The translations under genes and the position numbers were made by a program. From Peptococcaceae bacterium (GTDB lineage: Bacteria > Bacillota > Dehalobacteriia > UBA4068 > UBA4997), in the NCBI GenBank assembly GCA_022797295.1, contig JAAWKH010000010.1, positions 1 through 61,717 on the forward strand: DNA of 61,717 nucleotides. Reading direction: 5' to 3'. The notes under the pieces were generated by a model that worked only from the letters and a program-made list of their open reading frames with translations, made no database searches and was not told where the DNA came from. Below, in pieces: positions 4,801 through 45,555 of this stretch; the first letter of the stretch is position 1; each line of letters begins with the position of its first letter.

Positions 4801-5978
4801 AAAAGCTTGGCCTGCAAAGTCAGGAGGAGGTTAAAGAGGAGCGGAGCAAATTTTTTCATTGGTTTGCCCAGATTAAGCCTTATGCTATATTAACATTGAT
4901 ACCGCTGTTTTTCACCCTGCTTTTTGGCGGCGCGTTCAGTCCGGTTTCCAACACAGACGTGCCGGTGCTTATTTACGATATGGACGGCTCCAATGAATCT
5001 CGCCAACTGGTGGATTACTTTGTGGAATATCCTTATTTGAATATTTATGAGAGTGTTTCCTCAATGGCTCAGCTTGAGGAGGCTATGCTGTCCGGCGAGG
5101 CCTTGGGCGCGGTGATTGTGCCTGATGGCTTTGGCGCCGATTTGCAAAGCCGTAGCGGCGCGGAAGTGCTGGTGATGCAGGATTCCAGCAATTTTATGAA
5201 TATGTCAACCATTATGCAGGCGGTCAGCAATATCAGCGGCACTATGAATGCGGGCATTCGCCTGAAGCTGTTGCAGGCGGGCGGGATGTTGCCGGAGCAG
5301 GCGGCCAAAAATGTGCTGAGCCTCAGCGTGGTTGACCGCGGTCTGTACAATCCAACTTATGGTTATCTCTACTTTTTGTTTCCCGGTTTGCTGGCGGTTT
5401 TTGTGCAACAAACGCTGCTGGCGGCGGCCACTCCGTATCTGATTGAAAAAAAGCAGCTGCTTTGCAGCGGCCCTGGTTGGCGCAGGGCCTTTGCGGAGGT
5501 GGCCGCCCGCCTGGGCAGCTTTGCTTTGGCCGGCACGCTGGGCCTGTTTATCTGCCTGCTTGCGTTGAGCAAGGTTTTCAATTACCCCGTCAATGGCAGC
5601 GCCGGCCTGATTTTGCTGGTGCATGTGCCGTTTGTGCTGGCGGTTTGTGGGATGGGATTGCTAATTTCCGCTGTTTTTGACGACACGGCCGATTGCACTA
5701 TGTTCAATATGTTTCTGACCATTCCCACCTTTTTAAGTTGCGGTTATGCCTGGCCGGAATATATGATGCCGGAGGCGTTTAAGGCGGTGGCGACGCACAT
5801 TTGGCCGCTTTACTATTACGCCAACCCATTGCGGGATATTATTATGAAAGACGCGGATTATGCCATTGTGGCCCCGTTTGCAGAGGGCTGTTTGTGGTTT
5901 GCCGCCTTTTGGTTGCCGGCCGGAATTTTAGCTTACGTTTACAAGGTGCGGCTGTTGCGCCGGATTGAGAATAACTAA
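4797..5978 (+). CDS. ABC-2 type transport permease (second)
   Basis: A 393-residue paralogue of the preceding permease with the same plan: a leading hydrophilic stretch, one helix near residue 30-45, a large external domain with short Q/N/S-rich segments, and a C-terminal helix bundle ending in a basic tail. Its ATG overlaps the previous stop codon, implying coupled translation. The operon ends here in a strong hairpin shared with the convergent HxlR gene. The substrate cannot be predicted from sequence alone. Confidence 0.85.
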   Translation: MKKLGLQSQEEVKEERSKFFHWFAQIKPYAILTLIPLFFTLLFGGAFSPVSNTDVPVLIYDMDGSNESRQLVDYFVEYPYLNIYESVSSMAQLEEAMLSGEALGAVIVPDGFGADLQSRSGAEVLVMQDSSNFMNMSTIMQAVSNISGTMNAGIRLKLLQAGGMLPEQAAKNVLSLSVVDRGLYNPTYGYLYFLFPGLLAVFVQQTLLAAATPYLIEKKQLLCSGPGWRRAFAEVAARLGSFALAGTLGLFICLLALSKVFNYPVNGSAGLILLVHVPFVLAVCGMGLLISAVFDDTADCTMFNMFLTIPTFLSCGYAWPEYMMPEAFKAVATHIWPLYYYANPLRDIIMKDADYAIVAPFAEGCLWFAAFWLPAGILAYVYKVRLLRRIENN

Positions 5979-36809: not shown

Positions 36810-36830
36810 AAATCAACAGTCGAAATAAAC

Positions 36831-36953
36831 AGGCTGTTGAGAAATGCTCAGATTTGAGTGCATCGCAAGCGAAAGGAGGGAGGCGTACTTCAAGTATGTT
36901 GACCGACTTGAAGCGAAGCGATAAGCTCAAAGATGGGCGTTTATCAGCAGTCT
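36831..36953 (+). repeat. Covarying hairpin repeat, copy A
   Basis: A 123-bp element between mcsB and clpC, homologous to 45382-45502 read on the minus strand. Its ends are near-inverted (AGGCTGTTGA...TCAGCAGTCT) and the whole element is an imperfect palindrome: CTGTTGA (36834-36840)/TCAGCAG (36944-36950), TTTGAG (36853-36858)/CTCAAA (36926-36931), ATCGC (36862-36866)/GCGAT (36918-36922), with an apical GTACT/AGTAT hairpin after GGAGGGAGGC. It ends 20 bp before the clpC start, just ahead of its GGGGGT ribosome site. It could act as an mRNA-processing or stability hairpin, or be a MITE-like mobile repeat. Confidence 0.8.
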
Positions 36954-36973
36954 GAACTATAGGGGGTAATATT

Positions 36974-44749: not shown

Positions 44750-45394
44750 ATGACGGAAATAACAATTATTGAACCCCAGCTGATTGAAAGCAGAAGCTTT
44801 GAAATTATCAGTGAGATTTTGGGCGAGGAACGCCTGCAACAAATTCCGGCGGAGCAGCAAGGGATTGTGAAGCGGGTTATTCATACCAGCGCGGATTTTG
44901 ATTATGCCGACAATTTGGTTTTCAGCCCAGGCGCAGTGGCGCAGGCGCAGGCGGCTTTGCGCGGCGGCTGCACCGTGGTGACGGACACCCGGATGGCGTA
45001 TTCCGGCATTAATCAGCGCAACCTGAGCAAGCTGAACTCTGCCAAGGCCTGCTACATTGACGCGCCTGAGGTGGCGGAGCGAGCCAAAGCCCAGGGCGTC
45101 ACCAGGGCGGCGGTGGCTATGCAGCTGGCGGCGGAGCAGCCGGAAAACCGCATTTTTGCCGTTGGCAACGCGCCAACTGCGCTGTTGGCCTTGCGCGATT
45201 TGGTTTTGGCCGGCAAGCTGCAACCGGCTTTGGTGGTTGGCGTGCCGGTTGGTTTTGTTAATGTGGTGGAGGCCAAGGAGCTGTTTATGGAGCTGGAGGT
45301 GCCTTATATTATCGCAAAAGGCAGAAAAGGCGGAAGTAACGTGGCGGCGGCGATTGTTAACGCTTTAATGCTAGGCTGCCTAGACTGCCAATAA
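44750..45394 (+). CDS. cbiC: Cobalt-precorrin-8 methylmutase
   Basis: A 214-residue CbiC that moves the C11 methyl to C12 to give cobyrinate. The catalytic histidine is H45 (VIHTSADFDY); GVPVGFVNVVEAKE and RKGGSNVAAAIVNAL close the domain. ATG 44750 follows GAGG by a short spacer. The last codons (Leu-Asp-Cys-Gln-stop) lie inside the hairpin repeat at 45382-45502, so the element supplies the C terminus and stop codon. Confidence 0.94.
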   Translation: MTEITIIEPQLIESRSFEIISEILGEERLQQIPAEQQGIVKRVIHTSADFDYADNLVFSPGAVAQAQAALRGGCTVVTDTRMAYSGINQRNLSKLNSAKACYIDAPEVAERAKAQGVTRAAVAMQLAAEQPENRIFAVGNAPTALLALRDLVLAGKLQPALVVGVPVGFVNVVEAKELFMELEVPYIIAKGRKGGSNVAAAIVNALMLGCLDCQ

Positions 45395-45502
45395 ACGCCC
45401 ATCTTTGAACTCTTCACGGCGCTCAAATCGTCAACGTACTATTAGTACGCCTCCTCATTTCGCTTGTGAAATCATTCAAATCTGAACATTTCTTGACAGT
45501 CT
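45382..45502 (-). repeat. Covarying hairpin repeat, copy B
   Basis: A 121-bp element in reverse orientation to copy A (36831-36953). Terminal arms are AGACTGCCAA/TTGACAGTCT. Stem segments: CCAA/TTGA-side 45385-45391 with 45493-45499, TTTGAA (45404-45409)/TTCAAA (45475-45480), TTCAC (45413-45417)/GTGAA (45466-45470), and an apical GTACTATTAGTAC. The same stem positions in copy A carry different but still complementary bases. It begins within the last codons of cbiC, in the 161-bp cbiC-cbiD gap. Confidence 0.8.
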
Positions 45503-45555
45503 ATATACGACTAATAAGCGATCATCTTTGATAAGTAATAAAGCAGGTTTATTAA

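Follow-up and report, generated by a model that had tools for sequence, protein, structure and literature searches.

On balance, we read the two dispersed hairpins of the window (the whole 61,717-nt stretch of DNA that was analysed), called copies A and B, as members of a MITE-like family that was probably spread by borrowed transposases and whose fold, formed by one strand, has likely been kept by selection, also in copies that no longer move. The mobile-element part of this reading appears quite probable, and selection in place on the single-strand fold appears probable. The features concerned are the following, the strong strand being the one that folds better.

36830..36954, plus strand (strong strand): copy A, whole hairpin; from folds, alignments, covariance models and gene families.
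36851..36852, plus strand: copy A, 5' side of the tandem G.A loop, motif A-GA-T; from sequence, fold and related copies.
36932..36933, plus strand: copy A, 3' side of the tandem G.A loop, partner of 36851..36852; from sequence and fold.
36880..36902, plus strand: copy A, apical part with the tip GGCGTACT-TCA-AGTATGTT; from sequence and alignments.
36880-36881 and 36901-36902, plus strand: copy A, the two sides of the apical GA loop; from sequence and alignments.
45381..45503, minus strand (strong strand): copy B, whole hairpin; from folds, and also present in the sister genome G006.
45381..45394, plus strand: last part of the cbiC-like reading frame with its stop (45392-45394), which lies in the right arm of copy B; from sequence, open reading frame and PF02570.
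45511..45532, minus strand: right-arm-like fragment just 5' of copy B, in the sense of B; read by eye.

The first-pass annotation of the window had described A and B as homologous hairpins, and its positions were correct to within one base (36830 and 36954 for A, 45381 and 45503 for B). The apical part, with the sides of the GA loop and the tip, is the most conserved portion of the family in the alignments. The fragment next to copy B is likely the remnant of a second, head-to-tail copy. Copy A is flanked by an mcsB-like gene and a Clp ATPase gene; it ends 19 nt upstream of the start codon of the latter, on its coding strand. This gene is labelled clpC-like from its position and domains, as no model separates ClpC from ClpB. 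Copy B is located at the end of a cbiC-like gene that is followed by a cbiD-like gene, and its strong strand is antisense to both. Both copies had been thought to sit between genes, which holds for A, whereas B extends into the cbiC-like frame, covering its final codons and stop; cbiC homologues in relatives without the element have other endings.

As RNA, copy A folds with -66.9 kcal/mol on the plus strand and -33.5 kcal/mol on the minus strand (z-scores of -10.7 and -2.6), and copy B with -55.0 kcal/mol on the minus strand and -28.3 kcal/mol on the plus strand (z-scores of -7.3 and -2.5). The strong-strand energies were reached by none of 200 shuffles. The earlier strand call, plus in A and minus in B from the wobble pairs, was right, since the same strands fold far better. 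With RNA parameters, the strong strand was the more stable one in all 42 diverse members and in 44 of 47 genus copies; with DNA parameters, this was so for 41 of 42 and 46 of 47, respectively. The diverse set, used also for wobble pairs and box spacing, consists of 51 non-redundant members minus nine judged by eye to be truncated or hybrid (L068, L098, L106, L111, L130, L144, L147, L160 and L181). Similarly, 83 elements were read in the first 80 loci retrieved with the sequence pattern described below, and 66 of the 68 with full context favour the same strand in folding. As the asymmetry appears with RNA and DNA parameters alike, it cannot tell RNA from single-stranded DNA; the polarity that had been taken as a hint of a functional RNA stands, and would fit single-stranded DNA as well as RNA.

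Comparison of A with B over 41 consensus pairs revealed 29 unchanged pairs, six changed on both sides and still paired, five changed on one side and still paired, and one not paired in both copies. The compensated changes are therefore real, and the initial estimate of four or five was slightly low. In an alignment of six copies (A, B, a third copy of the window genome and three copies of a sister genome), 96.3% of the 246 cells were paired and 9 of the 41 pairs had a double-sided change. Shuffles gave 5.2 +/- 1.5 such pairs, with 8 of 500 reaching nine, and sliding the partner by one to three columns left 0-2 of them, with pairing at 35-43%. For a second class, represented by 20 copies of the same genus, 33 of 48 pairs varied on both sides, as compared to 19.6 +/- 2.1 in shuffles (0/500 reached 33) and 7-17 in the slid control; its structure was derived from the same 20 sequences, which biases the result in its favour, and 88.3% of the cells pair while 11.7% are unpaired.

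Wobble pairs were counted on arm alignments in which G.U and A.C were scored alike. On the sense strand of 35 genus copies (G005 left out) there were 171 G.U versus 78 A.C, with G.U in excess in 26 copies and A.C in five; the nine copies of the window genome had 43 and 12. The 42 diverse members had 142 G.U and 117 A.C, and their outer 45 bases (77 G.U, 103 A.C) displayed no preference for G.U. Strand-specific wobble is thus clear in the genus, but not evident in the outer arms across the family.

Further copies were indeed found in the genome and its relatives by the covariance-model search that the first-pass annotation had proposed. The model built from the six copies had matches in 13 of 101 relatives (E<=0.1, opposite-strand matches to the repeat included), and nine places were listed for the window genome, G000, a 1.9-Mb draft, when opposite-strand matches were left out. 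The family has in common a rod that usually measures 124-131 bases; it is interrupted by G.A internal loops and carries a GGCGUACU...AGUACGYYGA tip. In DNA letters, the common core is made of the tandem G.A loops (A-GA-T on both sides), an AGG and an AACG box, and the GGCGTACT...AGTACGYYGA tip. Both boxes were readable in 39 of the 42 diverse members; among these 39, the 3' gap from tip to AACG box measures 17-20 nt in 34, and the 5' spacing 24-26 nt in 27. In the window's genus, the two outer arms of a copy are complementary, and their sequence changes between copies.

A pattern combining the tip and the AACG box retrieved at least 119 stretches from GTDB genomes, 80 of which were listed with titles. 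Among the matches listed, the titles included Deltaproteobacteria, Desulfobacterales, Geobacter, other Desulfuromonadales, Acidobacteriota (Bryobacterales, Holophagae), Rokubacteria, Planctomycetota, Nitrospirae, Spirochaetes with Treponema, Clostridia, Bdellovibrionia, Pseudomonadales and others. These are mostly metagenome bins, so that misbinning can inflate the number of phyla, and some matches (L130, for example) have no member-like fold. Named strains carrying the family are Treponema vincentii OMZ 806, Geobacter sp. AOG1 and Pelovirga terrestris M08fum. A second model, made from 54 sequences, retained just 18 base pairs because the variable arms failed to align. At E<=0.05, and scoring up to 150 candidates in each genome, it gave most matches in a Rokubacteria draft (93), Geobacter AOG1 (76) and T. 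vincentii (52), with lower numbers in two Desulfobacterales (26 and 14), G097 (22), the window genome (10) and G041 (6). At E<=1e-4, with at most eight candidates scored per genome, it matched in at least 55 of the 398 genomes examined from the phylum of the window (window genome included) and at least 41 of 266 genera. Plasmid and phage records contained no match for copy A or L091, and plasmid records none for L137. Six pattern matches were in viral contigs; two of them (L061 and L064, IMG/VR contigs classed as viral) fold like members and represent a possible vehicle between hosts, and the other four do not fold so.

Evidence for mobility came from other lineages. In the Rokubacteria draft G105, the terminal repeat was counted 60+52 times and the reversed motif 0+0 times. 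Elements read in this draft are about 152 bp long, or about 213 bp in many copies with some 61 bp more at the tip (L214, L219, L220, L222), and are laid out with two direct copies of the repeat at the start and one inverted copy at the end. They are framed by CTAG, either a duplicated target or a part of the element, in which TAG is usable as a stop on either side. In the 4.5-Mb genome G106 the terminal repeat occurs 306+311 times (0+0 reversed), that is about 600 element ends, pointing to some 300 copies. Of the 22 G106 elements read, 15 lie between exact 4-bp target duplications, which vary in sequence (control 13/462). Exact duplications of 4 or 5 bp were found in 7 of 13 elements of the desulfobacterial type and in 4 of 5 of the Geobacteraceae/Desulfuromonadales type, the latter being five elements with GATGC- or GCTGG-type ends picked from a list mixing both types; the respective controls gave 3/156 and 2/210 at 4 bp, and none at 5 bp.

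With its terminal inverted repeats and target duplications in these lineages, the family is mobile DNA of the MITE type. Its members are short, non-coding and dispersed in many copies. Terminal inverted repeats are shared in G105 and G106, whereas the arms vary between copies in the window's genus, where target duplications were absent at the hairpin ends (0/44) and, with offsets of up to 3, as frequent as expected (3/44, 3.5 expected). Copies A and B are kin of the MITE-like elements and probably arrived by the same route, but on one point, the target duplication, they fall short of a strict MITE. An autonomous partner was sought among two transposase families, PF01609 and Y1. None of the PF01609 loci of G105 (four) and G106 (three) had matching ends on both sides, and no transposase was seen between element ends in the 30 G106 loci read. 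One reading frame between two distant G106 ends was considered as a partner and rejected, as it is a PHP-domain gene. In G106 we also noted a bare 46-bp palindrome of two terminal repeats without a core, with TATC on each side (L229, about 1501-1546), which may reflect either loss of the core or a minimal mobile unit.

In the window's genus, seven ortholog groups have both flanks matching, which indicates that many of the copies are old. Copy A is absent from six sister mcsB-clpC gaps, inspected whole, and from the examined part of the G002 gap. Copy B is common to the window genome and G006, and absent from six other cbiC-cbiD gaps. In the five ortholog pairs involving two genomes (B; C17/C111; C4/C3; C48/C18; C46/C146), changed stem pairs comprised nine double-sided and 14 one-sided changes that kept pairing and three that broke it. 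Over all 12 ortholog comparisons, pairing was kept in 26 double-sided and 36 one-sided changes and broken in 31 one-sided and two double-sided ones; most breaks came from a four-genome locus, in part through a shifted alignment, as judged by eye. Copy B is identical at 121 of 122 positions between the window genome and G006, over flanks of 88-92% identity, and as the bases adjoining it look equally conserved, this identity is a weak sign of selection. Selection on the fold after insertion is supported by the data from the genus, but not by the outer arms across the family.

Position relative to genes was also polar. The right end fell within 15 nt of the stop of an antisense frame of at least 120 codons for 30 of 47 genus copies, and the left end for five (random 4.6%). 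For the diverse members, here all 51, the corresponding numbers were 15 and 0 (random 3.4%). With a limit of 40 nt, they rose to 32 right and 12 left in the genus, and 18 right and 7 left in the diverse set; an extra left repeat in some elements pushes the left end outward. With exact ends in G106, gene stops were counted 5 times at the right and 3 times at the left end out of 21. The gene-end polarity is therefore strong in the window's genus and weak in the lineage with the most copies. A cruder count of context over 107 copies indicated a mild polarity, with 32 overlapping a predicted open reading frame and the downstream gene antisense in 42 and sense in 25. The polarity would be explained if insertions that place a very strong hairpin in the message of the abutting gene itself were selected against.

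Promoter and terminator scans detected nothing at copy A or copy B. At least five T in the eight nucleotides after the hairpin were present in 13 of 44 genus copies with enough flank in the direction of the abutting gene and in 2 of 44 in the sense direction (3 and 2 of 43 in the diverse set). An intrinsic terminator was rejected, given that none was called at A or B and that T-tails are not general. A known RNA family was likewise rejected, as Rfam was silent at the elements: no match was obtained at an element in the window at the gathering threshold (the level applied to the copy-B region), in the copy-A region at E<=5, or in 15 related loci at E<=0.5. The remark that this is not a recognised named repeat thus agrees with what is named in Rfam and in the open-licence literature searched. 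An integron attC site was set aside by eye, since no attC-type core boxes surround the hairpin.

How might such elements work? Dispersal by transposition, observed in other branches, would have taken place long ago for the window copies, with transposases acting in trans from elsewhere. One strand is predicted, with the support of covariation, to fold into a rod. A protein may recognise this folded strand, in a transcript or in exposed single-stranded DNA, by its G.A loops and tip, and such recognition would preserve pairing in copies that stay in place. Tolerance by the host is the likely reason why insertions are found at gene 3' ends and have their strong strand antisense to the gene that they abut. 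A bolder version can be proposed tentatively: a mobile element defined by shape across phyla, in which a protein would read one folded strand and the fold would still be selected after insertion. What would be read is a rod of near-fixed length with tandem G.A loops and a GGCGUAC tip, the core riding on terminal repeats that differ between lineages.

It is unlikely that the family is an ordinary MITE acting at the DNA level, with arms kept complementary by hairpin-templated correction (quasipalindrome repair) and a fold without function. Terminal repeats and target duplications fit this explanation, as do the outer arms, which lack a G.U preference in the diverse set and vary between copies yet remain complementary. 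However, templated correction would erase the G.A mismatches, so that their conservation at fixed places counts against it, together with the excess of G.U over A.C in the genus and the constancy of the better-folding strand in the diverse members. We give somewhat less credit still to a once-mobile regulatory RNA, acting in cis or in trans and kept for its effect on neighbour genes by 3'-end processing, attenuation or blocking of antisense transcription. Such an RNA would be in line with compensation in place, with the many genus copies that start at a gene end and with copy A lying on the coding strand close upstream of the start of the clpC-like gene. Against it, the own message of the abutting gene holds the weaker strand, A and B have neither a called terminator nor a promoter, and T-tails are found in a minority.

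REPIN/RAYT and IS605-type hairpins are short, extragenic and strand-polar, and the present elements resemble them in these respects. That a Y1 transposase moves them as hairpins of single-stranded DNA is nevertheless very improbable. The strand-specific hairpin, its conserved mismatches and the lack of target duplications in the genus would suit it, and the 24 nt preceding the hairpin contain AACC in 10 of the 45 genus copies with enough flank, versus 1 of 45 in a background stretch. But Y1_Tnp (PF01797), present in 4 of the 13 genomes searched, is missing from the window genome, from the element-rich genus members G002, G005 and G006, and from T. vincentii, for which reason IS605/RAYT mobility was rejected, and other lineages have clear 4-bp target duplications. 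A bias relative to the replication strand, considered as a sign of single-stranded DNA transposition, had no support: among the matches listed, T. vincentii orientations were mixed in both chromosome halves, as counted by eye with an assumed origin position.

If, as in the reading that we prefer, a one-strand fold kept by selection is the recognised feature, it would offer a direct route to fishing out the recognising protein and would account for the continued covariation of fixed copies. A further caution is that a mobile element, too, can show covariation, which usually signals a functional RNA. One single-strand architecture recurs in Treponema, Geobacter, Rokubacteria and the window's lineage, on terminal repeats that vary with the lineage. 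Descriptions of bacterial MITE-like repeats usually cover one genus at a time, and members of this family may have been seen earlier in that manner. Among the matches listed, the open-licence PMC literature held no description of a cross-phylum family, and the papers retrieved with sequence strings looked unrelated.

The Correia, RUP, CIR, RPE, Chunjie and ERIC repeats are described in reviews (PMC10969869, PMC2229807), and going by the descriptions available in these sources, ERIC is closest to the present family in size and shape, and Chunjie in host and size. ERIC, or IRU, is a 127-bp repeat of enterobacteria and Vibrionaceae (PMC2229807, PMC10969869). The likeness extends to size, imperfect palindromy over the whole length, intergenic location, high copy number and effects on messages that depend on orientation. 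Unlike ERIC as so described, the present family spans many phyla and combines a conserved tip and conserved G.A loops with duplications of 4-5 bp in the three other lineages tested. The Chunjie MITE of Geobacter uraniireducens (178-235 bp, terminal and direct repeats, about 95 full or partial copies; PMC10969869) is similar by its description in host group, size, terminal repeats and direct repeats, and may be a member of the family. Multicopy intergenic palindromes are known in Geobacter, some families occurring in several species (PMC2700814, PMC2996986); some of them may be the present element, but one family, as excerpted there, has the central palindrome GRCGTAGCGCTGCTACGCC, unlike the tip found here.

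Several minor observations were made on the arrangement of copies and on their neighbours. Covariance-model matches form head-to-tail pairs, from a few to about 50 nt apart, at G005:C12:4427-4707, G053:C32:11176-11449 and G108:C23:20348-20647. In three G005 loci (L022, L053, L054), whole, truncated and apparently recombined elements are heaped in intergenic regions, with inner and outer modules of different classes joined. The G002 mcsB-clpC gap (L190) contains another palindromic repeat, with TGATAA...TTATCA arms, in two copies side by side; it is also found beside the cbiC homologues of G002 and G004 (L199 and L198), and has complementary outer stems specific to each copy. In T. vincentii (L090), a member (5615-5736) lies about 60 nt from a TD-2 RNA of Rfam (RF03162; 5799-5888), on the opposite strand. 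Finally, in a Nitrospirae bin (L122), a member (2016-2137) stops 7 nt upstream of a tmRNA gene on the same strand (2145-2491).
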